Part shown: in pieces, positions 1,493-13,446 of the stretch
Position numbering within the stretch: position 1 is the stretch's first letter
How the letters are laid out: every line of letters begins with the position of its first letter
From: an uncultured Acidimicrobiales bacterium
GTDB taxonomy: Bacteria; Actinomycetota; Acidimicrobiia; Acidimicrobiales; SZUA-35
DNA: 36,533 nt
NCBI GenBank assembly: GCA_938021675.1
Contig: CALIFY010000050.1
Span: 1 to 36,533 of the forward strand
Reading direction: 5' to 3'
Program-made: the position numbers and the translations under genes
Notes under the pieces: generated by a model
The model's input: the letters and a program-made list of their open reading frames with translations, nothing else
Database searches by the model: none
Told to the model about the DNA's origin: nothing

Positions 1493-1750
1493 ATGCGAGA
1501 AATGCGCTTCATCAAGAAAGACGGAAATAGTGGAGTGACGGACTGCGCAGCGATCATCGCTACCGAAGCTGCACCCTCCCGCTACCAATTGGCCGACACT
1601 CCTGGGTACGCCGTCCAGGTGGTGACCCTCACACCAGAAGAAGAAGCTCGAGTCCGCGCCGTCGCGGAGAAGCATGGAGTCGCGCTCGGAGCGCACGAGG
1701 CCCTAGGCTGGCTGCCGGCCGACGTGCTGGAGGGCATCAACGACACATGA
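1493..1750 (+). CDS. Small protein of a DUF6879/Scr1-type regulatory operon (85 aa)
   Basis: The start is the ATG preceded by a clear GAGGGGAAA ribosome site. The N-terminus (MRFIKKDGNSGVTDCAAI) resembles short proteins that I recall sitting next to DUF6879 genes in other actinobacteria; that link is from memory and moderately sure. The middle (YAVQVVTLT) looks like a beta-strand and the rest is helical (TPEEEARVRAVAEKHG). It has one Cys and no membrane segment. It overlaps the next gene by 4 bp (ATGA), so it is probably translated in a fixed ratio with its neighbours. The biochemical role is unknown. Confidence 0.7.
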   Translation: MREMRFIKKDGNSGVTDCAAIIATEAAPSRYQLADTPGYAVQVVTLTPEEEARVRAVAEKHGVALGAHEALGWLPADVLEGINDT

Positions 1751-2274
1751 TCGAGCTTTCACCCGAGGAACGGTTCGACCTGTTGCGGTTCGCGGAACGG
1801 TCCCTGTTCCATCTCGAACTTCGAACGTTCTATGCCTCGGACCAGAAGCAGTTTCAGGCGTGGCTCTCTGGCGACCGAACTCCGCCAGACGATTGGCCTC
1901 AGTTCGTCGAATGGGCGACGGTCGTTGGTGGACACGTCGCGTCAGGTTGCCAAGTCAGACGAATTCGAGTGTTCGATGATCCACCGACCGACTACCAGCG
2001 GTGGGAACGCTGGCTCGGCCGGTGGAACACCGAAGCTGGTGAACAACTGCGTACTGTGCCTCGGGCAGTTGCCAACGCTGTTGGTTTGACCGCCGATCTG
2101 GATGACTGGTGGCTGATCGACAGCGAAAAAGCGGTCATTCAACGGTTCGATGACGACGGAGTAAGAATCGGGCTATGGCTAGTGACCGATCCTGCCGAGG
2201 TCAACCGATTGGCCAAGCAATGGGAGTTGGCCATGGCCAATAGTGAGATCGAGAAATACCCGCAACCGGCCTGA
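1747..2274 (+). CDS. DUF6879-like protein (175 aa)
   Basis: The length, the acidic aromatic character and the pattern FYASDQKQFQAWLSG, then RRIRVFDDPPTDYQRWE, then DDWWLIDSEKAVIQRFDDDG match what I know of the DUF6879 family, found almost only in actinobacteria next to XRE/DUF5753 regulators. The protein is soluble with no signal peptide. Function is not established; partners of this type have been discussed as toxin-like or signalling elements. The ATG start sits in the ATGA overlap with the gene before, and the stop overlaps the next start by 1 bp (TGATG), so all three genes form one operon. Confidence 0.75.
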   Translation: MIELSPEERFDLLRFAERSLFHLELRTFYASDQKQFQAWLSGDRTPPDDWPQFVEWATVVGGHVASGCQVRRIRVFDDPPTDYQRWERWLGRWNTEAGEQLRTVPRAVANAVGLTADLDDWWLIDSEKAVIQRFDDDGVRIGLWLVTDPAEVNRLAKQWELAMANSEIEKYPQPA

Positions 2275-3134
2275 TGGACAACCCGGTTCTTTCCCAGTGG
2301 TTGACTCAGCCAGGCGGCCTTTCTACATTGCTGTCCGAGGCGCGGCAAGCCGCTGGACTGACCGGCGTAGCGTTAGCAAACCGACTCGATTGGCCTCAGT
2401 CGAGAGTGTCGCGAATCCAGGCTGGCCGCCAGGTCGCTACCCGGTCCGATGTCGCGCAGTGGGCCGAGGCTTGCGATGCTCCTGGATTAGTAGACGCTGT
2501 CGAGCCGCTTCTGTCCGAGGCTTCGGCCCGTCATCTTCCATGGCGGCTCCGGTTGGCCCGTGGTCATGCTGGGGCGCAGGAGGGCTACAACGTTCTCCAC
2601 CGCGAATCCGAGCGAGTCGTGATGGTCGAGACGGCTCTTATTCCTAGTCCGCTTCAGACGAAGAGCTACTCCCGGGCCGTTCTCTCGGCTCTGTCGAACC
2701 TTGTTCCTCAGATCGTTGATCTCGATGCAAGCGTGTCTGCTCGCGCCGCTCGGTCTGTCACCGATGACGCCGAGGGACCGGCGTATGAGTTCATCGTGAG
2801 CGAGGCGGCCCTTCTCGGGTCTCCGGCTTCGAAAGATGTGATGCTCGAGCAGCTCGAACATCTCCGCAACGTGATCACCTACGAGGGCGTCACATTTCGG
2901 CTACTGGAACTGACGCCTGACTCGCCGGTCGTGCCACTGGAATCGTTCCGCATATACCGCATCGAAGACCAGAACCTGGTGCTGGTCGAAACATTCAGCG
3001 GCGAGACCGAGTACTCGACACCGGAACGAACAGCCGACTACATCAAAGCGCTCGACTGGCTCCGGGAAGCCGCTGTAACCGGTTCTGAGTGCCGCCAGGT
3101 GATCAACCGAGCGATCCGCCGCCACCGACGGTAG
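2274..3134 (+). CDS. XRE-family regulator with DUF5753 (Scr1-like) domain
   Basis: Residues about 15-70 form an XRE helix-turn-helix (SEARQAAGLTGVALANRLDW, then SRVSRIQAGRQVATRSDVAQW). Residues about 95-275 match the DUF5753 domain (LARGHAGAQEGYNVLHRES, ETALIPSPLQT, then FIVSEAALL and the YSTPERTADYIKALDWLREAA end). This layout is that of the Scr1 family antitoxin-like regulators of actinobacteria. It is the last gene of the operon and probably regulates it. Downstream it converges, after 70 bp, on the minus-strand Zn-ribbon gene. The 286-residue length is normal. Confidence 0.88.
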   Translation: MDNPVLSQWLTQPGGLSTLLSEARQAAGLTGVALANRLDWPQSRVSRIQAGRQVATRSDVAQWAEACDAPGLVDAVEPLLSEASARHLPWRLRLARGHAGAQEGYNVLHRESERVVMVETALIPSPLQTKSYSRAVLSALSNLVPQIVDLDASVSARAARSVTDDAEGPAYEFIVSEAALLGSPASKDVMLEQLEHLRNVITYEGVTFRLLELTPDSPVVPLESFRIYRIEDQNLVLVETFSGETEYSTPERTADYIKALDWLREAAVTGSECRQVINRAIRRHRR

Positions 3135-3204: not shown

Positions 3205-3855
3205 CTAACCACCATCGGGGCCGACTCCGGTCACGCCTGGGTCGGCCTCCATGACATTTCTGCCGAGAGCGAGCGCCTCGGCAGGGATCCGTTCGACGCC
3301 CTTGGCAGTCCAGTGTTTCCGACATGGGTCGCAGCGCCCGGCCCGCAGGTACTCGCCTGGTTTCATGATCCGCTGACAGTTCGGGTTGGAGCACATGCGA
3401 ATGTTGCGGTCCGATGATCCGCATTGCACGCCATCGATGACCCGTTGGCACCGGTTGTATCGCCGGTCGATCGGGTGATCGCAGCGGGGGCATTTCGCGG
3501 TTGACCGGGTTGGGTTCCATTGGTCAAACGCGGCGAGGATCACCCGGACTGTTTTGGCTTGGGTAGCGACTCGCTCCAGTACGAGGCCGGCGTACCGGGC
3601 GACCGGGTCGTCGCCGAGGGCTTTGGCTTCGGTTGGTGTGTCGGGTTGGACGGGCCGGCCTTCGTCGTCGGTTTGGTTGTGTGGTGTTGTCGATGTCCCT
3701 GACGCTGTTGTGGGGTAGCTGGCGTCGGCCGCGTCGGCTAGCGCCTGGAGGACGGTCGGGGCGTGAGGTTTGCGAAGTTCGGCAGCGAGCTGGTCGCAGA
3801 GCAGCGCAAGGTCAGCGATTTGGGTTCGGGTGGGAGGCCGGGGCGTGCGGGTCAT
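3205..3855 (-). CDS. Zinc-ribbon-like phage protein (216 aa)
   Basis: This is the last gene of the leftward operon. The N-terminal half is helical and Pro/Thr-rich. The C-terminal half has paired cysteines (CPRC, CxxVIDGVQC, CSNPNC, CDPC), consistent with two zinc ribbons. No named family is recognised. The ATG start has an AAGGGA ribosome site about 10 bases upstream. There is a 36-bp gap from the methyltransferase stop, the largest gap inside the operon. DNA or RNA binding is a guess from the zinc ribbons. Confidence 0.7.
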   Translation of the reverse strand: MTRTPRPPTRTQIADLALLCDQLAAELRKPHAPTVLQALADAADASYPTTASGTSTTPHNQTDDEGRPVQPDTPTEAKALGDDPVARYAGLVLERVATQAKTVRVILAAFDQWNPTRSTAKCPRCDHPIDRRYNRCQRVIDGVQCGSSDRNIRMCSNPNCQRIMKPGEYLRAGRCDPCRKHWTAKGVERIPAEALALGRNVMEADPGVTGVGPDGG

Positions 3856-3891
3856 TGGTCGGGGTCCCTTCGTGGGTTCACGGCTGAGCGT

Positions 3892-4686
3892 TCAGGCTTG
3901 CCAGAGGGTCATGGCCGCTGTTTCGGTGTTGACTGGTGCGCCTCGCTCGGCGTTGCGGAGCCGGTGCGCTGCTGTTGCTGCCATCGCGGTGTCGAGTTCG
4001 ACTCCGATGAACGACCGGTGGCGCCGGTAGGCAGCTATGCCAGTAGTCCCCGACCCTGCGAAAGGGTCGAAGACCGTTGCCCCTTCTGGAACGATCTGGA
4101 CCAAAGCGTCGAGAATTTCAAGAGGCTTTTCTGTTAGGTGAACTTTGTTTCTCGGTGACGCCGATACGAACACCCCGTCAAGACAGGGCGCTTCGGGTGC
4201 CGGTTTGTGTGGGCCATTGGTAGCCCAAACAAGGAACTCGGTGTCGTTCCACAGTCCGCCTTTCGTTGGCCGAGAGGCGCCTTTGGGTTTCTGCCAGACG
4301 CCGAGACCTCGCCAGACCCATCCGCCCGCTTGGACTGCATCAGTCGCGCTTGGCAGCTGGCGCCAATCGGTGAACATCAAAAGATGGCCGCCTGTTCTTG
4401 TCCGAATCCGGGCGGAAGCGAGCCACAGAGCGCACCAGTGAGCGAAGCTACGTTGGTCTCGGTTGTCGCCGGTGAAGTCTGGCAGTGCCGGTGCCCCACT
4501 GGTCCGGTATTTCGTGTTCACGTTCTGGTTCGTTCGATCGCCTCGCATTGCTCCACCGGAGCTATACGGCGGATCGGTGATGACCGCGTCGACGACGCCT
4601 GGAAATCTCTCAAGCCACAAGAGGCAGTCAGCGATGTGAACTTCCCACCCGTTGCCACTGACCGGAGAGTTCATGCCGGCGTCCAC
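3892..4686 (-). CDS. DNA methyltransferase, beta class, probably N6-adenine
   Basis: The catalytic motif IV DPPY occurs near the N-terminus (DAVITDPPYSSGG, about residues 34-46) and the AdoMet-binding motif FDPFAGSGTTGIAA near the C-terminus. This order defines the beta class of amino-methyltransferases; DPPY favours adenine N6, though cytosine N4 is not excluded. Length (264 aa) is normal for phage enzymes. No restriction endonuclease gene is adjacent, so it is an orphan methylase, probably protecting phage DNA or marking replication. The GTG at 4686 follows the previous stop by 3 bp; an ATG four codons later (4674) is an alternative start. Confidence 0.88.
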   Translation of the reverse strand: MDAGMNSPVSGNGWEVHIADCLLWLERFPGVVDAVITDPPYSSGGAMRGDRTNQNVNTKYRTSGAPALPDFTGDNRDQRSFAHWCALWLASARIRTRTGGHLLMFTDWRQLPSATDAVQAGGWVWRGLGVWQKPKGASRPTKGGLWNDTEFLVWATNGPHKPAPEAPCLDGVFVSASPRNKVHLTEKPLEILDALVQIVPEGATVFDPFAGSGTTGIAAYRRHRSFIGVELDTAMAATAAHRLRNAERGAPVNTETAAMTLWQA

Positions 4687-4689
4687 GCC

Positions 4690-4953
4690 CTAGCCGCAGT
4701 CTTTTCGCGTGATCTGATCCGTAACCCGGCGCTGGCCGAGACCGAGAGCGTCGGCGGTTTTGCGGGCGTGCCGGGCGCGGAGCCAACAAGCGACACGGCC
4801 TTTGGGCCGGCGGCGGATACACCAGGCGAGTGCCCAGTTGATGGGCCACGGGAACCGGGCGGCGGCGTCGCGGGTCCGGTCGTCTTTGGTGGGGACGTCG
4901 AATTCGTACATCCGATCGGGGTCGGGTGGTTCGGGGAAGATCCGGTCGAGCAT
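4690..4953 (-). CDS. Small Arg-rich hypothetical protein (87 aa)
   Basis: No family is recognised. It is basic, with Trp-rich segments (FPWPINWALAWCIRRRPKG) and a possible helix-turn-helix-like end (ARKTADALGLGQRRVTDQI). The ATG overlaps the stop of the endolysin gene by one base (TGATG); a TTG one codon earlier is possible. It lies between the endolysin and the methyltransferase. Although a holin would be expected next to an endolysin, I see no clean membrane span here, so I do not call it one. Confidence 0.6.
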   Translation of the reverse strand: MLDRIFPEPPDPDRMYEFDVPTKDDRTRDAAARFPWPINWALAWCIRRRPKGRVACWLRARHARKTADALGLGQRRVTDQITRKDCG

Positions 4954-5672
4954 CAACGGGTCGCCTTTGATATCCCGTGGATTGTTTCTAGGCGGCCGGC
5001 TTGGCTGGTGACGGTGGTGGTGGCGGCGCCGATCGTTATCGGCCCGGCGATCCCGTCGACGGTGACACCGAGGTGGCGTTGAAGTTGGCGAACCTGTGCT
5101 TCAAGAGCCTTCGAGGATGGGCTGCTGTCGTTTCGGTATGCGTCGAAGAATCGATGCCATGGGAAGCCCGGTCCGGGGTCGGTGCGGCGGTCGGGGTCGA
5201 GCGCTGCGTGGGAGGCGAATCCCGGCCCGTAGTGCCCTCCAGGTCCACGCTTGGCGGTACTTGCTGGGACGGTGATCCCGTGCGCTACACGGAGCCATTC
5301 TGCGGCGCTGCGGGCGGCTCCGGCGAGCCGGTCGATCACCTGGCCGATGTAGGAGTCGTCGAGGTCGGTCCATTCAGCGGCGCGGACCGCGGCGGCGATC
5401 CCGATGGTGTAGCTGTTGTGCCCGCGCACGTGGAACATCGTCCACCCGAACTGGCCGAGTTGGACGGTCGAGTCGGCGTCGCTGATCGTGTGATACGACC
5501 CGGCATCCGAGCGGTCGCGGATGAACCGGGCGACCGCTTCAGCTCCACCGTCGGGCAGGTCGGTGTCGGGGCGGTTTTCGGCGGTGTGGACGACGATCGT
5601 GCCGGTCGGTTTCGTGTTGCGGGTGGTGTAGAACTGGCGGCGCGCCGGCGGGTTGTGTTCGAGGTAGATCAT
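4953..5672 (-). CDS. N-acetylmuramoyl-L-alanine amidase (endolysin) with peptidoglycan-binding end
   Basis: The N-terminal 165 or so residues match the Amidase_2/PGRP fold: TIVVHTAENRP with the first Zn histidine, SYHTISDADSTVQL, HNSYTIGIAAAV, then SHAALDPDRRTDPGPGFPW, which supplies the second His and the Asp-containing ligand region. The C-terminus (VRQLQRHLGVTVDGIAGPITIGA) is a PG_binding_1-type repeat. It should cut the bond between MurNAc and L-Ala during phage lysis. No signal peptide is seen, so it would need a holin. The start is the ATG with AAGGAA upstream; the longer frame to 5831 has an Arg-rich N-terminus that overlaps the next gene. It overlaps its upstream neighbour by 4 bp. 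Confidence 0.9.
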   Translation of the reverse strand: MIYLEHNPPARRQFYTTRNTKPTGTIVVHTAENRPDTDLPDGGAEAVARFIRDRSDAGSYHTISDADSTVQLGQFGWTMFHVRGHNSYTIGIAAAVRAAEWTDLDDSYIGQVIDRLAGAARSAAEWLRVAHGITVPASTAKRGPGGHYGPGFASHAALDPDRRTDPGPGFPWHRFFDAYRNDSSPSSKALEAQVRQLQRHLGVTVDGIAGPITIGAATTTVTSQAGRLETIHGISKATR

Positions 5673-6004
5673 TGGGGGTTCCTTGTGGTGGTTAGGTCTC
5701 CGGTTACGAACGCGGTGCAGGCCGGCCACTTGATCCGAATGTCGGGGCCGTCGTGCCCTTGCCCGCCGGCGAGCCGGCACTTGAAAAACGAGTCGCCGGA
5801 GGGCACCGTTTTGCGCCAACAGTTCAAGCAATCACCACACGTCGACTCGGTGCCCTCGATGATCGGGCGGCGGGTCGCGGGGTGGATAGCTAACCGGAGC
5901 AACCGCTGGTTTCGGACGGTGCGCTTGGCGTCGCTGCCGAGGTCGTCGATGGTCGGCCTGTGGACGGGACCGGTGGCCATCGAGGGGAACGGGTCGGCGG
6001 TCAT
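5669..6004 (-). CDS. Small Cys-rich phage protein (111 aa)
   Basis: Not a named family that I can assign. The C-terminal half carries CGDCLNC followed by FFKCRL and WPACTAF, a pattern consistent with a zinc-binding knuckle. The start ATG overlaps the stop of the preceding gene by 4 bp (ATGA), and the gene ends in the ATGA of the endolysin start. An upstream extension to 6127 is Arg/Pro-rich and overlaps the next gene, so it was not used. Role unknown; similar small Cys-rich proteins are common in early operons of actinophages. Confidence 0.65.
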   Translation of the reverse strand: MTADPFPSMATGPVHRPTIDDLGSDAKRTVRNQRLLRLAIHPATRRPIIEGTESTCGDCLNCWRKTVPSGDSFFKCRLAGGQGHDGPDIRIKWPACTAFVTGDLTTTRNPQ

Positions 6005-6210
6005 GCGGCGTGCTCGTCGAGGTACGCGAGGGCTTCGGCGAGGTATCGCTTGCTGGCCCGTTTGTTCTGCGCTGCGACGAACCGGCGTTGGAGCTGCGGG
6101 GTCAGCATTCGCCAGTGCCCGAGGCACGTCAACGCGCCGGGTTTGATTCGGATTTCGCAGCCGGTGACCTGGCAGACGACAGGGGTTTCTGCGGGTGCGG
6201 TTTGGTTCAT
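6001..6210 (-). CDS. Small zinc-finger-like phage protein (69 aa)
   Basis: The N-terminus has CQVTGC, then CLGHW, giving a probable C-C-C-H zinc site. It is followed by a helical part (LTPQLQRRFVAAQNKRASKRYLAEALAYL). This short architecture is familiar from actinophage early regions but has no assigned function. The ATG at 6210 has AAAGG upstream and overlaps the preceding stop by 4 bp. Its own stop overlaps the next gene by 4 bp. Confidence 0.65.
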   Translation of the reverse strand: MNQTAPAETPVVCQVTGCEIRIKPGALTCLGHWRMLTPQLQRRFVAAQNKRASKRYLAEALAYLDEHAA

Positions 6211-6437
6211 GCTGCGTGCCTTTCGGTTCGGATCGGATAGCGAGTTCTTGGCTTTCGTTGGGCGATGTCGTCGAAGTAGCGGCGGATGTTCCCGTTCCAC
6301 GGCGGCAAACACCAGGCGTGAATCCACCGGCCGTCGCTGGTTTGGTGAGCGGTGAAACCGTCGCGGCATCCGGAGCAGAGCCGGCGACCGAGACGGTCAG
6401 GGCTCGGGTGTTGCTCGACTGGGTGCCGGGATCTCAT
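6207..6437 (-). CDS. Small zinc-finger-like phage protein (76 aa)
   Basis: The segment LCSGCRDGFTAHQ followed by RWIHAWCLP gives a C-x2-C ... H-x2-C zinc site. No larger domain is recognised. It is placed in the middle of the leftward operon with 4-bp overlaps on both sides. Together with its neighbours it forms a run of three consecutive small Cys-rich proteins. Function unknown. Confidence 0.62.
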   Translation of the reverse strand: MRSRHPVEQHPSPDRLGRRLCSGCRDGFTAHQTSDGRWIHAWCLPPWNGNIRRYFDDIAQRKPRTRYPIRTERHAA

Positions 6438-6754
6438 CGCGGGTTCCTGCCGCTGGTCGCGGCGAGGACGGCGCGGGCCTGGTTGAGCCCGTCCCGCGCT
6501 AGAGCCGCGTACCGGTCCGGGATTTTCTTCGGTTCGGTGGTCGGCCCGACGGGCGGGTCGGTTTGAGCTGGCGGCCGCCCGTTGAGAGTTCGGGCGAGGC
6601 GGGCCGGGGTGAGCCCTTCGGCGTCGCGTGCTGCGGCGTCGATGATCTCGGTTCGGGTGTACCCGCGTGCTGCTTCGGTGAGCATCACCCGCTCGGAGAT
6701 CGTGAGTTCCCAGCCGTGCGTATCGGCGAGCAAACCGAACACGTCGCCGGTCAT
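6434..6754 (-). CDS. Small helical hypothetical protein (106 aa)
   Basis: No family is recognised. The first half (ISERVMLTEAARGYTRTEII then ARDAEGLTPARLARTLNG) is predicted helical with a helix-turn-helix-like spacing, and the middle is Pro-rich. It overlaps the replication-type gene upstream by 4 bp, so it may be an accessory of that protein; a role as a helicase loader or replication partner is only a guess from position. Confidence 0.62.
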   Translation of the reverse strand: MTGDVFGLLADTHGWELTISERVMLTEAARGYTRTEIIDAAARDAEGLTPARLARTLNGRPPAQTDPPVGPTTEPKKIPDRYAALARDGLNQARAVLAATSGRNPR

Positions 6755-7773
6755 CCGAGGCCCCAGCGTTGGGCGTATTCGGCGTTGGCCGACGACAGCT
6801 CGGCCGCCGTCAACGCTTCCAGCTCGACGGGATCAAGCTCGGCCGGCGGGCCGGGTGTCCGGGTTTGCGGGCCGCGGTTGGGCTGGTCGGGTGGGTCGCT
6901 GTTGGCGTGCCGACGGACAGCGCCGAGCCACCAACGGCGAGGGTCGTCGGCGCCGCGGGCGGCAGCATCGTGGCCGAGTTCGACGACCACGGCGGGATCC
7001 CATCCGCGTTTGAGTGCTCGGCTCACGGTGCGTTCCTCGCCGACGGTCGGCGTCGCGTCGAGGTAGCCGATCGCCTGCAACGCTTCCCTGCCCACCACCA
7101 CCGCCACGGGTTCGGGCTCGGCGCTCTTGGGTCTGTCTGAGCGCGTGGGTGGTGGTTGTTTTTCTGCCCCTGCCTCTGCCTCTGCCTCTGTCTCTGCCTC
7201 TGATGCACGTGCTAAGCGCTTTTGGCTTGCACTGCGCTTGCGCTGCGCTGCCGCTGTACCGCTGTGCTGTGCTTGCGCAGCGCTAGCGCTTTTGTGCGCT
7301 CTGACCTGGTCTTTCTCGTCACAAAGAGGGCACCCCTCTCGTGGGTTACCGTCGTGCCAGCCCTGCTTATGACCGGACCGGAAACCGTTAGCTCGCTTTT
7401 TGGCCTCTGCCTCCGCCCGACGGTTTTCCACAGCTTCGACTGGATCGTTGTGTTTGAACCATCCCGAGATCCGGTACGTGTGCATCTTGTCGTCGACGAT
7501 TTCCCACAGTCCGAGCACTACCAGTTCGCCGATGGCGTCGGCTACGACGTCCTGGCAAACGTCGCCACTTTCGACCGTGACCGGAACGTCGAACAAACCA
7601 CCTAGAACCGACCGCCGGCTGACGATCCCATCACGAGCGGACACCTTGGCATGGACGAGCCCGCGGAAGTAGACGAGTTGAGCGACCGCAGACGCGAAAT
7701 TGAGCCGTTCGTCGTTCAGCACGTCGACCGAGAGCGGCACGAAGAGTAGATCTTTAAGCGCCCGGTCTGTCAC
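6751..7773 (-). CDS. Replication-initiator-like phage protein
   Basis: The N-terminal 115 residues (LLFVPLSVDVLNDERLNFAS ... IVSRRSVLGGLF ... LGLWEIVDDKMHTYRISGWF) have the winged-helix pattern of phage replisome organiser or DnaT/DnaD-like N-terminal domains. The middle (about 125-215) is low complexity, with Ala/Gln/Lys/Arg repeats, a Cys pair (CPLC) and an EAETEAEAEAGAE run. The C-terminus is helical (EERTVSRALKRGWDPAVVVE). Position next to recT and the exonuclease supports a DNA replication role. The start is a GTG in a GTGA overlap with recT. Family assignment is tentative. Confidence 0.6.
   Translation of the reverse strand: MTDRALKDLLFVPLSVDVLNDERLNFASAVAQLVYFRGLVHAKVSARDGIVSRRSVLGGLFDVPVTVESGDVCQDVVADAIGELVVLGLWEIVDDKMHTYRISGWFKHNDPVEAVENRRAEAEAKKRANGFRSGHKQGWHDGNPREGCPLCDEKDQVRAHKSASAAQAQHSGTAAAQRKRSASQKRLARASEAETEAEAEAGAEKQPPPTRSDRPKSAEPEPVAVVVGREALQAIGYLDATPTVGEERTVSRALKRGWDPAVVVELGHDAAARGADDPRRWWLGAVRRHANSDPPDQPNRGPQTRTPGPPAELDPVELEALTAAELSSANAEYAQRWGLG
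7164..7205. repeat. Hexamer microsatellite (CTGCCT)n inside the replication gene
   Basis: Seven consecutive hexamers, five of them exact or near-exact CTGCCT, encode the Glu/Ala run of the replication-type protein on the minus strand. Slippage here would change the length of the acidic linker without a frameshift. Confidence 0.85.
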
Positions 7774-8879
7774 GCCGACTCCAGCCAGTCGAGCATGGTC
7801 ATCGTGTGTGCGGGGTTGGCGGCGAGCCCGTCGACCGTCGGGTAATGAACGCCGGTCTGAGCGTGCGTGTTTTTGAGCAGGGCCGTCACGCCACCGTTGC
7901 CTTTCGCTCCGGTTCGGAGCGCGGCGACTCGTTCCTCGGCGGTCGAGGTGACCGCACCGCTAGGAGGACCGGCCGAGGAGCCCGCTGCCACGGTCGGCTC
8001 CTCGGCCGGTGGGACGCCCACAGCATCAGGAGGGGGTGATGCTGTGGGCGGGTCTTGTGGCGTGTAGGGCTCGACCGCGGGGTACTCGCTGACGATGCCG
8101 CCGTGTTCGTCGTCGAAGGTCAGGGGCCGCTCGTCGGCTGTGACAGCGCCGCTGTCGGCTGGGGTGAGGTCAAGGAACGGGACCAACGCCCGTACGGCTG
8201 ACTTGCGCCACATCTCGGCTTCCCACTTGGTCCATGGCGAGTAGGGGCGGGCCTTGGTCGACTTCCACGACTCCGACATCGCTCGCCGGGCGTGGACGTC
8301 TTCGATGTCGAGAACGACGAAGTTGTAGCCACCGTCGTGGTACCGGGCGACGGCGTAGACGCAGGTAAGTTCACCGGCTCTGCTCCGCGGTGCCGGTGAG
8401 TGTTCGAGGGTGTCGGATTCGAGTCCGCGTGCCCATTCGAAGTGATCGTTGTCGCGTACGACCTCAGCGAAAATGGTCTTGACGTTTGGGGCGCGGCGGG
8501 CGATCTTGAGGTAGCCCCTGTACCCGATCGACAGCTCGGCTTCGTCGACTCCGTCGTTCTTCCGTGGAAGAATCCATGCCTCCTGCGACGGGGTGTTCGG
8601 TTCCAGGCCGATAGTCGCCGCCTGGAGCGCTGCGATAAGGAGCGACCCTCGGCCTTGGTCGGTCTCGAAACATTTCGTGAGCCGCGGTGTCGACTTCACG
8701 GCCATAAGCGTTAACCGACTGAACCGGTCCGGGTCAACATGGTCTGGCAGGACTGCCCGGAACGCCGGTGATTGAGCCTCGATGGCCTGTCGGATGACAG
8801 CGGCTAGGGACGGCTTATCGGGCGTCGCAGCGATGACATCATCGCGTTTTTGGACAGCGTTACGAACATTCACTTTCAT
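7770..8879 (-). CDS. recT: RecT-family single-strand annealing protein
   Basis: Residues about 25-255 match the RecT family: VIRQAIEAQSPAFRAVLP, DRFSRLTLMAVKSTPRLTKC, LLIAALQAATIGLEPNTPSQ, then AELSIGYRGYLKIARRAPNVK and WTKWEAEMWRKSAVRALVPF. The C-terminal 110 residues are Pro/Ala-rich. RecT pairs single strands made by its partner exonuclease and drives recombination-dependent replication. The partner gene lies directly upstream with a 4-bp overlap. Length and motif order are normal. Start ATG at 8879; a longer frame is not available because of the overlap. Confidence 0.93.
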   Translation of the reverse strand: MKVNVRNAVQKRDDVIAATPDKPSLAAVIRQAIEAQSPAFRAVLPDHVDPDRFSRLTLMAVKSTPRLTKCFETDQGRGSLLIAALQAATIGLEPNTPSQEAWILPRKNDGVDEAELSIGYRGYLKIARRAPNVKTIFAEVVRDNDHFEWARGLESDTLEHSPAPRSRAGELTCVYAVARYHDGGYNFVVLDIEDVHARRAMSESWKSTKARPYSPWTKWEAEMWRKSAVRALVPFLDLTPADSGAVTADERPLTFDDEHGGIVSEYPAVEPYTPQDPPTASPPPDAVGVPPAEEPTVAAGSSAGPPSGAVTSTAEERVAALRTGAKGNGGVTALLKNTHAQTGVHYPTVDGLAANPAHTMTMLDWLESA

Positions 8880-9922
8880 CCTCCGGTGTTCTTCGGGATT
8901 CGCAGAACACGGAACGGGTCGGACTCATCGACCTCGCCGCAGTGTTCGCAGGTGGTTTTCCTGGTCTGAGTGCCGAGAGTGACCGCCCGTTGCCCGTTGA
9001 CGGTTCCCTCGTAGTTGTCAGCGATCGCCCACTTGAGGACCGCGGTCGCCGCTCCGACAGCGTCCGAGGCCGCCTTCTTTGCTGCCTTCGCTTCGGTCAA
9101 CATCGCGACAGCGCCGGCAACGTCATCGATCTCGACAGTCGACTTCGGGACATGCGCGGGGTAGATCGCTTCGATCGCTGCGAGGGTCGCAGCGTGCCCA
9201 TCGAGCGGTGGCGGTTCACCGGTCAAGACATGGCCGGTCCAAAACGCTTCGACCCGCTCCACCATGAAATCGATGTCGTCCTGATCCCGTTCTAGTTCAT
9301 AGACACGGAACCGGCGGCCGTGCAGCGTCGCGAACCACACCCGTTCCCACCCGGTCGCCGCCATCTGCCATTGACCTTGAGTCTGATAATGGGCCGGTAT
9401 CTCGATCCAGGGCACACCCCAGTCCGTTTTGATTTCTAGGCCACCGAGCACGTCACCGATAGGCGTGTCCGGCGAGTCGGCGACGGCCCCGTCCGGGGTC
9501 GCTAACATCCACGGGCGTTCAGGGTTCGTGACCCGCATTTGCTCGCCGACAATATGGAAACCGGTCCGGTCGGTGAACCACGGGCCGAGCATCGCTTCTG
9601 CTCGACGGCCGAATTCTTTCGGGTCGTCGTCGTTGTCGAACTGGTCGTCGTCGGGGACCAGGCCGACTTTGTCAGCCCAGATCGACCAGGGCGACGACCA
9701 GGGCGACAGGCCGAGGACCGCGGCGACATCGGACGCGCCGATGCCCCCTCTACGCCACGCCAGCCATTCGCTTCGATCAAAGTGGCCGGGAGCCTGCAAT
9801 GCTCCTTCACCTTGGGGGGTTCGGCTGTTCTCTTGGCTCCCGGCCCCGCCCTCCTCCCCACCCGTAGGCAGTTGTGAGGGCGTGCCGATTTCGGCAACCG
9901 ACGAATCGGTGCTGGCCGTCAT
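8876..9922 (-). CDS. YqaJ-type (lambda exonuclease-like) recombinase nuclease
   Basis: The segment about residues 45-225 carries the YqaJ/lambda-exonuclease fold: EWLAWRRGGIGASDVAAVLG, FGRRAEAMLGPWF, MLATPDGAV, the E-x-K core in GGLEIKTDW, and HYQTQGQWQMAATG. These give the PD-(D/E)XK catalytic residues. The enzyme should resect double-stranded ends 5' to 3', feeding RecT. The C-terminal tail has a CEHCGEVDESDPF zinc-knuckle-like end, which is unusual but plausible. It overlaps the genes on both sides by 4 bp, so nuclease and annealase are made together. Confidence 0.93.
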   Translation of the reverse strand: MTASTDSSVAEIGTPSQLPTGGEEGGAGSQENSRTPQGEGALQAPGHFDRSEWLAWRRGGIGASDVAAVLGLSPWSSPWSIWADKVGLVPDDDQFDNDDDPKEFGRRAEAMLGPWFTDRTGFHIVGEQMRVTNPERPWMLATPDGAVADSPDTPIGDVLGGLEIKTDWGVPWIEIPAHYQTQGQWQMAATGWERVWFATLHGRRFRVYELERDQDDIDFMVERVEAFWTGHVLTGEPPPLDGHAATLAAIEAIYPAHVPKSTVEIDDVAGAVAMLTEAKAAKKAASDAVGAATAVLKWAIADNYEGTVNGQRAVTLGTQTRKTTCEHCGEVDESDPFRVLRIPKNTGG

Positions 9923-10395
9923 AGCGCACCGTCCCGCATCTCGCGGCGGACGTACTCAGCGATAAGGGCAGCCTCCGCCCGGCCGCTGTCTTTCTTTCGA
10001 GCGAACAGGTCGGCGTTGCCTGGCCAGAGTTCGATGGCTTTAGCCCTCGATTTCTCTTTGCTGCGGGTCGGGTCTTTCCCGACGCGCAGCGCCTTTTTCC
10101 AGTCCTGGGGGCGGACGTCGAGAACTTGGTGGCTGACACCGAACGCGGCGCGCATGGTCCCCCAGCAGTCACCGAATTTGAACGCCCCGCTGTGGCCCTC
10201 GCCTGGTCTGGATCGGACGAGTTCGAGGCCGACGAGTTTGATCCGATCGTCGGTCGTGTAACCGCGCAGGAGCGGGATGGATACCCACCGGTCGACGGTA
10301 GGCATGTCGTCGGCGTAGTCGAGGCGCCCGTCGAGTGCGACAGCGGCGATCGCTCCGGTGACGCCGGGGTCGATCCCGACAATGATTCCGGTCAT
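9919..10395 (-). CDS. RuvC-like Holliday junction resolvase
   Basis: The N-terminus IIVGIDPGVTGAIAAV is the first acidic strand of the RuvC/RNase H fold. The Glu in LVGLELVRSRPG and the C-terminal acidic SGRAEAALIAEYV supply the other metal ligands. The RKKDSGRAEAALIAEY end is typical of small phage resolvases. It would cut branched DNA produced by the exonuclease and RecT. The ATG at 10395 gives an exact ATGA overlap with the upstream gene; the 13-residue extension to 10434 would overlap it further and is unlikely. Confidence 0.9.
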   Translation of the reverse strand: MTGIIVGIDPGVTGAIAAVALDGRLDYADDMPTVDRWVSIPLLRGYTTDDRIKLVGLELVRSRPGEGHSGAFKFGDCWGTMRAAFGVSHQVLDVRPQDWKKALRVGKDPTRSKEKSRAKAIELWPGNADLFARKKDSGRAEAALIAEYVRREMRDGAL

Positions 10396-10700
10396 GGTGT
10401 GCATCCGTGGTGTCGGTAGAGGCCGTCGGACCACAGGTCGATTGGTTGGCCTTCATGGATGGGCAGGTTGCAGCCCTCGCACTGGTCGAGGGTTCCGGCG
10501 GCGGGGACGGTCGCTACGACTACGACGCCGGGGCGGGTGGTGGGTGGTTGTTTGCAGTAGACGCACCAGTCAGGGTCAGCGATGCCGTGGACGCATTCAG
10601 ACACCGCTGACCGCCACCGGTAGAAACGCGAGGCCGCGTACGCTCCGGCGAGCGCTACGCATCCCCACGACAAAAGGGTCATAAGTAGCCACCGGGTCAC
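10392..10700 (-). CDS. Membrane-anchored Cys-rich protein (102 aa)
   Basis: Residues 3-25 form a hydrophobic segment (WLLMTLLSWGCVALAGAYAA), followed by a basic stretch. Two cysteine sites follow: CVHGIADPDWCVYC and CEGCNLPIHEG with a C-terminal HHGC. These look like zinc knuckles on the cytoplasmic side. The start is GTG inside a GTGA overlap with the 29-residue gene upstream. No family name is known to me. Confidence 0.65.
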   Translation of the reverse strand: MTRWLLMTLLSWGCVALAGAYAASRFYRWRSAVSECVHGIADPDWCVYCKQPPTTRPGVVVVATVPAAGTLDQCEGCNLPIHEGQPIDLWSDGLYRHHGCTP

Positions 10701-10786
10701 TTACGCCGAAGCGGGACAGCCACAACGAGCATGATCGCCAGGCCACTTAGTACGTAGATGGCGGCTACCACGTCGGCGGCGTTCAT
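10697..10786 (-). CDS. 29-residue single-span membrane microprotein
   Basis: The ATG overlaps the preceding stop by 4 bp (ATGA) and its TGA overlaps the next GTG by 4 bp (GTGA), so it exactly fills what would otherwise be an 82-bp gap in an operon without gaps. The product is almost wholly one hydrophobic helix (VVAAIYVLSGLAIMLVVAV) ending in PLRRK, the positive-inside arrangement. It is too short for most gene finders. Membrane anchoring, or a holin/antiholin or regulatory microprotein role, is possible but unproven. Confidence 0.6.
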   Translation of the reverse strand: MNAADVVAAIYVLSGLAIMLVVAVPLRRK

Positions 10787-11256
10787 GCCGGTTCCATCCG
10801 TCGACGGTCAGCGGTGATGACCTCGATCGCCCAATCGATCGCAGCTCGACGGTAAAGCATCGCTTCGATGTTCACGCGGGGCCGGGACCGGATCGTTCGG
10901 GTGATGTCTTGCACCCACTCATCCAGAACGGCGAGATACCAATCATCTCGATCGGTCGGAGGCACGTCGACGTAAGGGGAAGCCATCTCGTACGCCCACC
11001 AAACCGCCAGCTCACGCTCACGCGACCCACCACAATCCCTCAATGTCCGCGCCGCCGACGCAAGCTCGAACAAGCAGATCGATGTCCGGTCGGGGCCGGT
11101 CATGACCGGTGGTGAGGTGTTGTTTCGGTCGCGTCCGGGTCCCCGGTTCCGGGCACGAATCGCCTGCGCTCGGCTCTTGTCGTTGCTGGCTTGGCGTTGC
11201 CCTTCTCTGAACCCGGCACCGGGCGCGTAGCCCTGGCCTTGCATGTTGTTGGCCAT
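10783..11256 (-). CDS. Hypothetical early phage protein (157 aa)
   Basis: This is the first gene of the leftward operon. No family is recognised. The first 50 residues are basic and disordered (Gln/Arg/Asn-rich), and the rest is helical with many Trp and Arg residues (ELAVWWAYEMASPYVD, WYLAVLDEWVQDITRTIRS, RRAAIDWAIEVI). The ATG has a strong AAGGGAGGG ribosome site, in contrast to the overlapped genes downstream. Its leader is highly structured. Confidence 0.7.
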   Translation of the reverse strand: MANNMQGQGYAPGAGFREGQRQASNDKSRAQAIRARNRGPGRDRNNTSPPVMTGPDRTSICLFELASAARTLRDCGGSRERELAVWWAYEMASPYVDVPPTDRDDWYLAVLDEWVQDITRTIRSRPRVNIEAMLYRRAAIDWAIEVITADRRRMEPA

Positions 11257-11289
11257 TACGATGGCCCTCCCTTCAGAACAGTGATGGGA

Positions 11290-11412
11290 GGGCGGCGACC
11301 GGCGTTCCTGGAAGTTCTCCGGTCGCCGCCCAAATGAACTTTTACGGCGGTTGCACCCTCGCTAGTCGAGGGGTCTCCGATGAACGGACCTCCCAGGAGT
11401 GGGAGGAACCGC
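11290..11412 (-). ncRNA. Candidate structured leader RNA: cloverleaf plus H-type pseudoknot
   Basis: Read on the minus strand, an outer stem GCGGTT/AACCGC (11407-11412 with 11347-11352) closes three arms: a 7-bp stem (CCTCCCA/TGGGAGG, loop of 4), a 4-bp stem (TCCG/CGGA, loop of 5) and a 6-bp stem (CCCTCG/CGAGGG, loop of 5). Next come AAGTTC, a perfect 13-nt arm GGGCGGCGACCGG, GAACTT and the complementary CCGGTCGCCGCCC, in the order expected of an H-type pseudoknot. The ribosome site of the operon follows 14 nt later. Every helix is perfect Watson-Crick. Function is unknown; a riboswitch-like leader or a processed RNA are both possible. Confidence 0.4.
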
Positions 11413-11416
11413 GCGT

Positions 11417-11437
11417 GGTCAGACCGTGGTCATGACC
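11417..11437. promoter_or_regulatory. Tandem dyads, possible operator
   Basis: Two dyad elements, GGTCAGACC and the perfect palindrome GGTCATGACC, are spaced 11 bp start to start, close to one helical turn, just upstream of the structured leader. Cooperative binding of a phage regulator is a possibility; I see no convincing minus-10 box next to them. Confidence 0.3.
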
Positions 11438-11540
11438 CGCGGCCGGTTTCGGTTCCGTTCACCAGAGACGAGTTGCTCGACGCCGTGCCGCCGCGCAACG
11501 ACGCCGAGCAGAATCGATAGAGAGTGGCCGGGATAGGCGG

Positions 11541-11861
11541 CTATTCGTTGCCGTCGTCCGGTGGCGTTATTAGCGCGATCGCCTCGGCGGTTGTGTGGCT
11601 GACAATCGAGGCACCGGGTACGTCGAGCGCGACGTCGTCGACTCTTTGACAGGTCTCGATCTTTCGGCGAATTCTCGCTACCGCTTCGCCCGTATAGCTC
11701 CATCGAGCGAGCCGGCCCCAACAGTCGAGAAGTTCGATCGAGACCGGTTTTCCGTCGAGATTGATTTGCCACAGCCATACCGGCGCGGTAGTCGCTATCC
11801 CGATTCGGTGTTGTCGGCGCACCGAGTCTTTCGGCTCGATGCCTATCTCGGATAGGCGCAT
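11541..11861 (-). CDS. Hypothetical phage protein (106 aa)
   Basis: No family is recognised. The N-terminal half is beta-rich with many Trp (VWLWQINLDGKPVSIELLDCW), then a helical basic part (EAVARIRRKIETC), and the C-terminus ends in an Ala-rich helix. A GAAGGGA ribosome site lies 13 bases before the ATG, within a leader segment that is duplicated upstream of the gene starting at 11256. There is an 18-bp gap to the gene before it. Confidence 0.55.
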   Translation of the reverse strand: MRLSEIGIEPKDSVRRQHRIGIATTAPVWLWQINLDGKPVSIELLDCWGRLARWSYTGEAVARIRRKIETCQRVDDVALDVPGASIVSHTTAEAIALITPPDDGNE

Positions 11862-11879
11862 TACTTTTGCGGCTTCCCT

Positions 11880-12077
11880 TCAGTTCTCGGATGTGATGAG
11901 AAGGGCGGCGACGGCGCGGACTGGCTTGTGGCGTCGTTCGCCGCTTGCTTCCGGGTTGTAGTCGTCGACTGGGTAGGCCAACGGTGCACCGGGAGGGGCG
12001 GCACGCTCGAAGACGGCAGAGAGGTCGCCTAAAGTACCGACGTCCGACTTGGTGCGACAATGAGCAATATGGTTCAT
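11880..12077 (-). CDS. Small hypothetical phage protein (65 aa)
   Basis: No family is recognised. The start ATG overlaps the stop of the excisionase-like gene by one base (TGATG), and codon use is compatible with coding. The sequence is mixed, with an acidic and Pro-rich middle (YPVDDYNPEASGE). Its last codons overlap a hairpin (11905-11911 with 11938-11944) that resembles part of the later structured leader, so this end may serve both coding and RNA functions. Confidence 0.5.
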   Translation of the reverse strand: MNHIAHCRTKSDVGTLGDLSAVFERAAPPGAPLAYPVDDYNPEASGERRHKPVRAVAALLITSEN

Positions 12078-12289
12078 CAGCCATATTGCGAGCGTCCGAA
12101 CTGTGCTTCGGGCAATTCATCGACGAATCGTTCAAGTTCTGACCTTTCGACGATGGTCGAACCGCCTAGCTTTTTGGCCCTTATCGCTCCGGTGTTTAGC
12201 AGTCGGTAGAGGTTCGCTCGGGATATCCCGAGCGCTTCGGCAGCCGCTTCTGGCTTGTAGCCGACGGGAGTGGCGGCGGGGCGTTTCAT
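12077..12289 (-). CDS. Excisionase-like helix-turn-helix protein (70 aa)
   Basis: The segment YKPEAAAEALGISRANLYRL followed by NTGAIRAKKLGGSTIVERSE matches the HTH_17/MerR-like excisionase family, a winged helix-turn-helix used by phages and mobile elements as a recombination directionality factor or small regulator. It overlaps the upstream XRE gene by 4 bp. Its presence close to the tRNA attachment site supports an excisive element, yet no integrase is next to it. Confidence 0.8.
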   Translation of the reverse strand: MKRPAATPVGYKPEAAAEALGISRANLYRLLNTGAIRAKKLGGSTIVERSELERFVDELPEAQFGRSQYG

Positions 12290-12519
12290 CCGGCGGACAC
12301 CTCGGCAAGCTCGGCGAGGAGGCGGTGCCAGCGGAGCGCCGCCTTGCGGTTTGGATAGCGTTTACCGGCTTCCCATGCCAGTACCGCGGTATGGGAGACG
12401 CCAACGGCTTCGGCGACATGGCGGGCCGAGACCCTGGCCGCCTCACGCCGTCGGCGAGCCTCACCGTTGGCGGCCTGTGCTCTCATTTCGGCGACCTGCA
12501 CGACTTCGGTGGGTGACAT
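12286..12519 (-). CDS. XRE-type repressor-like regulator (77 aa)
   Basis: A compact helix-turn-helix (ARHVAEAVGVSHTAVLAWEA followed by GKRYPNRKAALRWHRLL) fills nearly the whole protein. It resembles small Cro/CI-like regulators. It starts just 23 bp from a palindromic operator shared with the divergent gene, so it is the likely master regulator of the lytic or excision decision. The ATG has no clear ribosome site, so the transcript may be nearly leaderless. Confidence 0.8.
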   Translation of the reverse strand: MSPTEVVQVAEMRAQAANGEARRRREAARVSARHVAEAVGVSHTAVLAWEAGKRYPNRKAALRWHRLLAELAEVSAG

Positions 12520-12542
12520 GGTCGAAACTTTAAACAGACCAC

Positions 12543-12580
12543 GTTTGTAATTGCAAACAGATAGCCGTCTTTTTTATAGG
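12543..12580. promoter_or_regulatory. Divergent promoter region with palindromic operator
   Basis: A 16-bp dyad GTTTGTAATTGCAAAC (one mismatch) overlaps TTGCAA, itself palindromic, which can serve as minus-35 both ways. Rightward it is followed after 18 bp by TATAGG; leftward, after 16 bp, by TTTAAA. The word AAACAGA occurs at 12532 and 12555. I infer the operator of the XRE protein. Confidence 0.5.
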
Positions 12581-12601
12581 CGATGGGTAGATTCGCCGTG
12601 G

Positions 12602-13291
12602 GTGCACTCGTGGTCTATTTCCGCTAACGTCATCGGCGTGTTCGAGTTCAAGGCCTCATCGGCTGGACTCACCCGCTTGCCGGTTGGCCGAAACGGTCGT
12701 TCTCGGGCGACATCCTGGCAATGCGATTTCTTCAACGAGGAAGAGGATCGGCTGAATGAGTTGGAGCCAGTGGCGACATTGGTGATCGACTTTGACGCCA
12801 ACGGCAGGGTGGTGGGTCAGCATCTGAATGGATCGGTTCATGGCATCACCGCGTCCCAATTGTCTCGGTTGCCTTGGACTCGCCTGATACGAATGGCCAA
12901 AAGCGAACGATCGCTCCAGCTAAACGCAGTAGTCAATCCCGACAAGCTGGAGCACGACGGCGCCAGTTCGACACTTCGACGCCTCGCCCAGGCCAAGGCG
13001 TCCGTGGCCGAAGAGCTGACAGCGATGGGGGAAAGTGTTAATCGAGTCAAGCGGCGGCCGGGGCGAGGCGGTCACCCAGACGAGTTCTATGAAGCTATAG
13101 CGCTTCGTTACTCCGCGTTGGTCGCCGAAGGGGTGACCAACCCGGTTCAGGTCATAGCGGAAGAAGAGAGCAACCGAAAAGAATCGGTTTCTCGGAACAC
13201 CGTGTCGACCTGGATTAAACGGTGCAGGGAACGGGGCCTACTCCCGTCGCCCGGTGGGAAACCTAGCCCGTCAAAGGGCAAGCCAAAATGA
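12602..13291 (+). CDS. Mobile-element regulatory protein with C-terminal helix-turn-helix
   Basis: The N-terminal 130 residues are of unknown fold (FEFKASSAGLTRLPVG, VATLVIDFDANGRVVGQHLN). The C-terminus (HPDEFYEAIALRYSALVAEG, PVQVIAEEE, VSRNTVSTWIKRCRERGLLP) is a helix-turn-helix seen at the end of many actinobacterial mobile-element proteins. It is transcribed away from the XRE repressor toward the tRNA attachment site. The frame is open from a TTG at 12551, but that lies inside the minus-35 region, so a GTG at 12602 or at 12638 is more likely; the exact start is unresolved. It is not an integrase: no Tyr or Ser recombinase motif is present. Confidence 0.7.
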   Translation: MHSWSISANVIGVFEFKASSAGLTRLPVGRNGRSRATSWQCDFFNEEEDRLNELEPVATLVIDFDANGRVVGQHLNGSVHGITASQLSRLPWTRLIRMAKSERSLQLNAVVNPDKLEHDGASSTLRRLAQAKASVAEELTAMGESVNRVKRRPGRGGHPDEFYEAIALRYSALVAEGVTNPVQVIAEEESNRKESVSRNTVSTWIKRCRERGLLPSPGGKPSPSKGKPK

Positions 13292-13304
13292 GAATCACCA
13301 AGAG

Positions 13305-13330
13305 GGCTCACAAAGACGGCTCACAATGAC
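13305..13330. repeat. 13-bp tandem repeat beside the tRNA attachment site
   Basis: GGCTCACAAAGAC is followed directly by GGCTCACAATGAC, differing at one position, 27 bp before the tRNA 3' end. Such paired short repeats next to an att core can be integrase or excisionase arm sites, which I infer here from position only. Confidence 0.6.
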
Positions 13331-13356
13331 GGTGTTTTCCCTGGTCAGAGCGTTAT

Positions 13357-13446
13357 TGGCGGAAGGTATGGGATTCGAACCCATGGTGACCCGGAGGCCA
13401 CAACGGCTTTCGAGGCCGCCCCATTCGTCCGCTCTGGCAACCTTCC
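13357..13446 (-). tRNA. tRNA-Ser (anticodon CGA), CCA encoded
   Basis: The acceptor stem GGAAGGT/ACCTTCC, discriminator G, encoded CCA, a T-arm with GGTTCGAATCC and a long variable arm identify a class II tRNA. The anticodon loop CTCGAAA reads CGA, serine, codon UCG. Its 3' end faces the prophage-like block, which is the orientation expected when an element has integrated in the tRNA 3' half. Confidence 0.95.

Follow-up and report, generated by a model that had tools for sequence, protein, structure and literature searches.

In the window (the whole 36.5-kb stretch of DNA analysed here), the gap at 11257–11540 on the minus strand is a real, unusual and orphan structured RNA region, which modelling of its folds suggests is probably a translation gate. 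The favoured reading, to which a probability of about 0.4 can be assigned, is that the RNA of the gap gates translation of the 157-aa gene downstream and, via coupled overlapping ORFs, that of the RuvC–RecE–RecT genes. The gap would be transcribed as RNA on the operon strand, and the folded RNA would hold the Shine–Dalgarno (SD) sequence of the 157-aa gene closed, at the base of a large folded domain. Control of the downstream genes by a structured RNA was also among the original suggestions, and it is still the best reading, although the stable fold differs from the one drawn there.

The source genome comprises 4.45 Mb in 99 contigs. The gap, with the 284-nt extent originally given to it, runs from the stop codon of a 106-aa ORF (11541–11861) to the ATG at 11256 of the 157-aa gene (10783–11256), both on the minus strand, and is the largest in a run of near-touching or overlapping minus-strand ORFs. 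In order of their starts, these encode an HTH protein (12519), an excisionase-like HTH_17 protein (12289), the 65-aa ORF (12077) and the 106-aa ORF (11861), followed 3' of the gap by the 157-aa ORF (11256), smaller ORFs and the RuvC-like, YqaJ/RecE and RecT genes, whose minus-strand reading frames overlap (7770–10434); the ORFs downstream of the 157-aa gene overlap in a chain. Because four ORFs of the same operon precede it, the gap is internal to the operon, and is not a leader before the early operon as had been proposed. Between 10500 and 13000, a scan confined to the Escherichia coli-type sigma-70 consensus found no promoter-like site, and no intrinsic terminator or attenuator (a GC stem with a U run) was found on the minus strand, the two terminator-like sites in this interval both being on the plus strand. 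Neither the 157-aa nor the 106-aa gene has recognized relatives: Pfam DUF6931 matches the former only below the cut-off (E 0.0034), and the predicted structures of the two proteins are of low confidence (pLDDT 55 and 48, respectively).

The surroundings are those of a phage-like early region (3205–13446), with an N6/N4 methyltransferase, an amidase/peptidoglycan-binding protein and RecET, ending beside a tRNA-Ser(CGA) gene at 13357–13446. No integrase or structural gene was recognized amongst the ORFs scanned, and the only repeats of the tRNA region within the window are a 15-nt match in the second tRNA-Ser gene and matches of 11–13 nt. A near-perfect palindrome, GTTTGTAATTGCAAAC, lies at 12543–12558, shortly before the start of the HTH gene (12519, minus strand), and from its sequence looks like an operator. 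It overlaps the listed TTG start of a divergent 246-aa ORF, which suggests that the true start of that gene may lie further downstream. A 46-aa ORF is present inside the gap on the opposite strand (11380–11520, plus), with GAGGGG before its ATG and no match in phages. Elsewhere in the window are a DUF6879 gene followed by an HTH_31–DUF5753 gene (1747–3134, plus strand), a pair typical of actinobacterial regulators, and a 3266-aa ORF (25063–34863, minus strand).

The minus strand of the gap folds with a minimum free energy of -149.1 kcal/mol, compared with -112.4 ± 5.4 in 200 dinucleotide shuffles, none of which was as good (z -6.8); the plus strand is weaker (z -5.1). With 40 shuffles, the setting used for the control windows, the gap gave z -8.7. 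The 130 control windows, of the same length and taken from both strands across the 36.5 kb, averaged z -0.9 (sd 1.3), in a set that takes in two windows overlapping the gap (z -7.1 and -4.2); the lowest of those that do not overlap it (z -4.8 and -4.6) are at 7841 in recT. This coding part of recT is itself unusually well folded (7951–8100, minus strand, z -6.6; 7841–8124, z -4.6 and -4.8). Amongst the 150-nt minus-strand windows scanned between 12600 and 8000, that at 11475–11326 was the most structured (z -8.9). When 450 one-strand windows of 150 nt from seven of the loci with RecE/RecT relatives were folded, with 30 shuffles each, z went down to -5.1, as against -8.9 for the gap in the same scan.

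On its minus strand, the gap contains uninterrupted helices of 16, 13 and 13 bp. None of 400 shuffles had a 16-bp stem, none had three stems of at least 13 bp and one had two such stems, which bears out the view that so much perfect pairing is unlikely to have arisen by chance. The four non-Watson–Crick pairs in the three long helices are all G-U when read on the minus strand, and are tolerable for a minus-strand RNA; this is weak evidence for the strand, since the folding program itself favours G-U.

From its 5' end, the predicted fold begins at 11474–11510 with a 13-bp helix (11510–11498/11486–11474, including two G-U pairs) and a further 2 bp. A three-way junction (11373–11469) follows, closed by a 16-bp helix (11469–11454/11388–11373, again with two G-U pairs), and excludes the closed four-way junction, or cloverleaf (11347–11412, outer stem 11412–11407/11352–11347), of the original prediction. 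Forcing the outer stem of the cloverleaf gave -137.2 kcal/mol as against -149.1, or 11.9 worse, and its outer pairs have a probability of 0.0 in the full gap; the cloverleaf loses because 11469–11454 pairs over 16 bp with 11388–11373. The three hairpins and the GCGGTT/AACCGC repeat from which it was drawn are present, and CGGTT (11411–11407) of the outer stem pairs instead with AACCG (11448–11444), inside the three-way junction. In 5'-truncated RNAs starting at 11450, 11430 and 11415, the four-way junction joins the best fold.

Downstream of the junction, folding gives a 6-bp hairpin, CCCTCG/CGAGGG (11356–11372), and a stem, S2 (11290–11331), of 13 perfect base pairs (11331–11319/11302–11290), reduced to 9 bp when the next hairpin, S3, is fully formed. 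The 13-bp stem had been correctly recognized, as had the complementary strings AAGTTC (11341–11336) and GAACTT (11317–11312), proposed as a pseudoknot, and AGAAC (11318–11314) and GTTCT (11279–11275), which could meet loop to loop; these two pairings are mutually exclusive. Read from the sequence, an H-type pseudoknot of AAGTTC with GAACTT (11312–11341) is possible. By rough arithmetic the chance of a 6-nt match at this place is a few per cent, and the 4-nt loop of the pseudoknot would need to span up to 13 bp. The claim of strong folding therefore stands, but the drawing of the fold was only partly right, and it overlooked the SD hairpin (11293–11286/11271–11264), the helix at 11510–11498/11486–11474 and the repetition of a module at the previous gene start.

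The 157-aa gene has the SD sequence AAGGGAGGG, which can pair with the sequence directly after S2 as hairpin S3 (11264–11293), in which GCCCTCCC faces GGGAGGGC (11293–11286/11271–11264) and TCA/TGA is added. When the gap was folded alone, the SD bases at 11271–11264 had an unpaired probability of at most 0.03; the 8-bp S3 had a probability of 0.50–0.58, and the remaining SD pairing was mostly with 11521–11526. With 40 nt of the gene added, the inner half of the SD sequence stayed in S3 (11270–11287, 0.86) and the outer half paired mostly with the gene start (11266–11251, 0.74), the pair 11266–11291 having a probability of only 0.10. The SD sequence was paired in all of the contexts folded, with differing partners, although the inner part of S3 persisted throughout, and amongst these contexts no fold was found that frees the SD sequence. 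The computed opening energy, again with 40 nt of the gene included, is 12.6 kcal/mol, the highest of 18 starts (3.0–9.5 for the other 17); when 58 ORF starts, a mixture of real and spurious ones, were compared, the 157-aa start ranked sixth (14.5; median 7.9), five being more closed.

The 5' arm of S3 and the base of S2 compete for GCCC. A state with 9 bp in S2 and 8 bp in S3 (-38.8) lies 0.6 kcal/mol from one with 13 bp in S2 and 4 bp in S3 (-38.2), and because the two are near-equal, the border between the stems can slide. They do not amount to a demonstrated on/off switch, since the SD sequence stays paired, its inner half in S3 and its outer half with the gene start. For the gate itself, the outer half would be held by S3 or, if the folded RNA takes in the first codons, by the GGCC with which the gene begins to pair. 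Beyond this computed closure, we infer an opener, an open fold and an effect on the recombination genes: the closing of the 157-aa gene would pass to RuvC–RecE–RecT by coupling of the overlapping ORFs.

The last ~80 nt of the gap (stem, SD hairpin and TAATG) recur, diverged, at the start codon of the preceding 106-aa gene. The copy in the gap, module B (11254–11348, minus strand), is the basis of covariance model R1 (S2, S3 and TAATG). The other, module A (11859–11963, minus strand), overlaps the 3' end of the 65-aa ORF and reaches exactly to the ATG (11861) of the 106-aa gene; it was identified from a model match and by alignment. In both modules the arms GCGGCGA/TCGCCGC are separated by a spacer of 26 or 24 nt and followed directly by the SD hairpin, the ATG comes 11 or 9 nt after TGAAGGGARG, and GTAATG is shared. 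Alignment of A with B scored 60, compared with 28.8 ± 5.0 (maximum 47.5) in 2000 shuffles of A; of 230 ORF starts, the next best reached 43, and amongst 949 minus-strand ATG/GTG positions, the best place outside both modules scored 49. A pattern fitted by design to the two copies gave exactly two matches in the 4.45-Mb genome that carries them and none in 60 relatives; the reversed pattern, used as a control, had no match. In a scan of the window, R1 matched module A with 12.5 bits, compared with 12.4 bits at an unrelated place (12368–12472).

The 7-bp arms of S2 are uninformative on pairing because they are identical in A and B. For S3, pairs were counted from the scored A–B alignment, excluding two alignments in which the SD hairpins are matched up differently and one that contains an opposite-strand self match. 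Six outer pairs could be compared in one register: one change is compensatory (C-G to U-A), one is C-G to U-G, four pairs are identical and none is broken; the inner UCA/UGA is also identical. These pairing-preserving changes are suggestive only, as module A has two competing registers, CTTCTC/GGGAAG with a probability of 0.25–0.58 by context and CCCTTC/GAAGGG with 0.33–0.43, the latter being favoured in the isolated A hairpin. Folded alone, module A has z -1.5, S3 is absent from its centroid and its SD sequence is not unusually closed (opening 4.8–5.8).

The TGA stop codon of the 65-aa ORF sits inside the module A hairpin. Where a terminating ribosome couples two genes, the stop codon usually lies in this way within a hairpin at the next gene start, and a ribosome terminating on the 65-aa ORF may open the hairpin at the 106-aa gene. 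Module B would need another opener, because the 284-nt gap removes the terminating ribosome. The candidates are a protein, a partner RNA or a refolding of the upstream three-way-junction domain; the 16-bp junction domain is perhaps what senses the signal.

The two modules could instead be sites in DNA, at which the inverted repeat GCGGCGA...TCGCCGC (spacer 24 or 26) and the SD repeat are bound by a phage or host protein. By analogy this is conceivable, although somewhat unlikely. The same layout is described in PMC3203893 for the start-associated repeats known as SAS and ESAS, for which the authors favour DNA-binding proteins, and the two copies here share identical 7-bp arms around spacers of different length. 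Set against this, there are two copies only, the S3 pairs change in a pairing-preserving manner in one register, and the 16-bp three-way-junction domain is left unexplained. Nor is the 13-bp SAS consensus, GGGATAGGAGCCC, enriched: 12 matches were found at up to three mismatches, compared with 10.3 by chance, and none with fewer than two. The modules are therefore not members of the SAS family.

It seems improbable that module B is simply a decayed duplicate of the junction between the 65-aa and 106-aa genes, with the rest of the gap being former coding sequence without function. One frame of B does read G-D-R-R...I-T, in register with the coding end of A (G-E-R-R...L-I-T) and with TAATG last, and the only start listed for this frame is a TTG (11333). 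Decay would not be expected, however, to yield helices of 16, 13 and 13 bp, given their absence from all 400 shuffles, or to leave B more structured than A.

No homologous leader was found in the viral_contigs and phages sets or in the family and order genomes searched, and covariation is for this reason limited to the two paralogous copies; this reflects a shortage of comparable sequences and does not refute the structure. A blastn search of 61 genomes with the leader returned its own copy and five matches of 29–45 nt in five genomes, covering different parts of query positions 83–142, which were judged to be GC-rich chance matches; in phages, blastn gave one 11% match (E 0.4). The 157-aa protein had no homologue in viral_contigs, phages, genome_contigs or plasmids. 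In 298 order genomes, at E ≤0.001, it matched in four (three besides its own, in which there is a second, weak match); the E values of the four weak matches range from 3e-4 to 1e-3, and stop codons occur in three. The 106-aa, RecE, RecT, 246-aa and 70-aa proteins had no match in viral_contigs. These single-protein scans, those with the 157-aa protein included, detect close relatives only. Amongst the matches listed, relatives of RecE and RecT are 24–38% identical, except for one 48-residue piece at 56% (genome G055). The loci of these relatives (L034–L045) had no R1 match above 11.6 bits (E up to 5), and a second model, R2, matched none of them (E up to 1).

Each of the two models was built by entering a single sequence in duplicate, and they cannot find relatives as distant as module A, because A would score only 12.5 bits. 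At E ≤0.1, R1 matched 9 of 39 family genomes including its own, where about four are expected by chance; at E ≤0.01 it matched 6 of 298 order genomes, again including its own, where about three are expected. Thirteen other R1 matches, of 18–22 bits, all lie within stop-free frames of at least 120 codons and look like chance. Several R1 matches break pairs or lose S3; one, at locus L023, retains every pair, but its G+C content is 80% and its bias 12.6 bits. R2 matched one other genome of the 298 (E 0.019), in which the inner structure is broken. A pattern scan of viral_contigs returned five stretches, three of them near-identical; two, L031 and L033, lie just before an ATG but fold differently. 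In Rfam 15 no family reached its gathering score, the best hit having 16.1 bits where 55 would have been required. No tRNA was detected in the gap, ARAGORN and Rfam reporting only the two tRNA-Ser genes, in agreement with the original exclusion of a tRNA. Amongst open-licence PMC papers, none was found on a structured leader RNA of an actinobacterial or acidimicrobial prophage operon.

The folded transcript might, by analogy, act as a put-like processive antitermination RNA, binding RNA polymerase and carrying it through the long recombination operon, a reading less probable still than decay. The setting in a phage early operon and the large stable stems within an otherwise tightly packed operon would suit it, and HK022 putRNA is described as acting alone in this way (PMC9378689). 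However, about 1 kb of the operon precedes the element, the E. coli-type scan showed no promoter-like site in the vicinity, and this reading would account neither for the buried SD sequence nor for the module at the preceding start. Least probable is that the operon transcript is processed into a small RNA, as was also suggested originally, or that another trans-acting RNA is involved: the compact, stable domain at 11475–11326 (z -8.9) is consistent with this, but there is no terminator-like site on the minus strand and no Rfam family, and a start codon goes with the 3' part.

The translation gate favoured here has a more ambitious form, which must be considered unlikely. The gap would then belong to a previously undescribed Acidimicrobiales phage RNA switch, with a three-way-junction sensor and an S2/S3 module at two successive starts, opened once by a terminating ribosome and once by another signal, and timing the RecET cassette. 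With two copies and no homologues found, the module counts as a good lead but not yet as a result.

Bacterial and phage operons have, as a general kind, hairpins that sequester the SD sequence in leaders and hairpins that serve translational coupling. The modules resemble them in that the SD sequence is paired in stems and that the hairpin of module A contains the upstream stop codon. They differ in that 284 nt separate module B from the upstream stop codon, so that simple coupling cannot open it, and in the large three-way-junction domain upstream of module B. HK022 put RNA is located immediately downstream of an early promoter. The gap element differs from it in its internal position and its buried SD sequence. 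As a structured RNA in a phage early operon the gap does recall putRNA (PMC9378689), but this is a looser parallel.

In cluster K mycobacteriophages, an SD-bearing repeat (SAS) occurs at start codons, and about half of the copies have an upstream 17-bp inverted repeat with a variable spacer (ESAS), according to PMC3203893. The copies, 11–19 in number, are at non-structural genes (PMC3203893; PMC12699233). Modules A and B likewise have an SD repeat just upstream of a start, preceded by an inverted repeat with a variable spacer, at non-structural genes. They differ from the elements so described in sequence, in having arms of 7 bp with spacers of 24 and 26, rather than arms of 17 bp, and in numbering two rather than 11–19. 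According to PMC3203893, departures in the ESAS arms generally do not support RNA pairing; here, unlike in that description, the only two copies, when compared, allow a pairing-preserving reading. SAS/ESAS elements have been recognized in actinobacterial phages since 2011, and their role still awaits experiment (PMC3203893; PMC12699233). A start-associated module that possibly acts by RNA pairing would make one version of this question testable by translational fusion.
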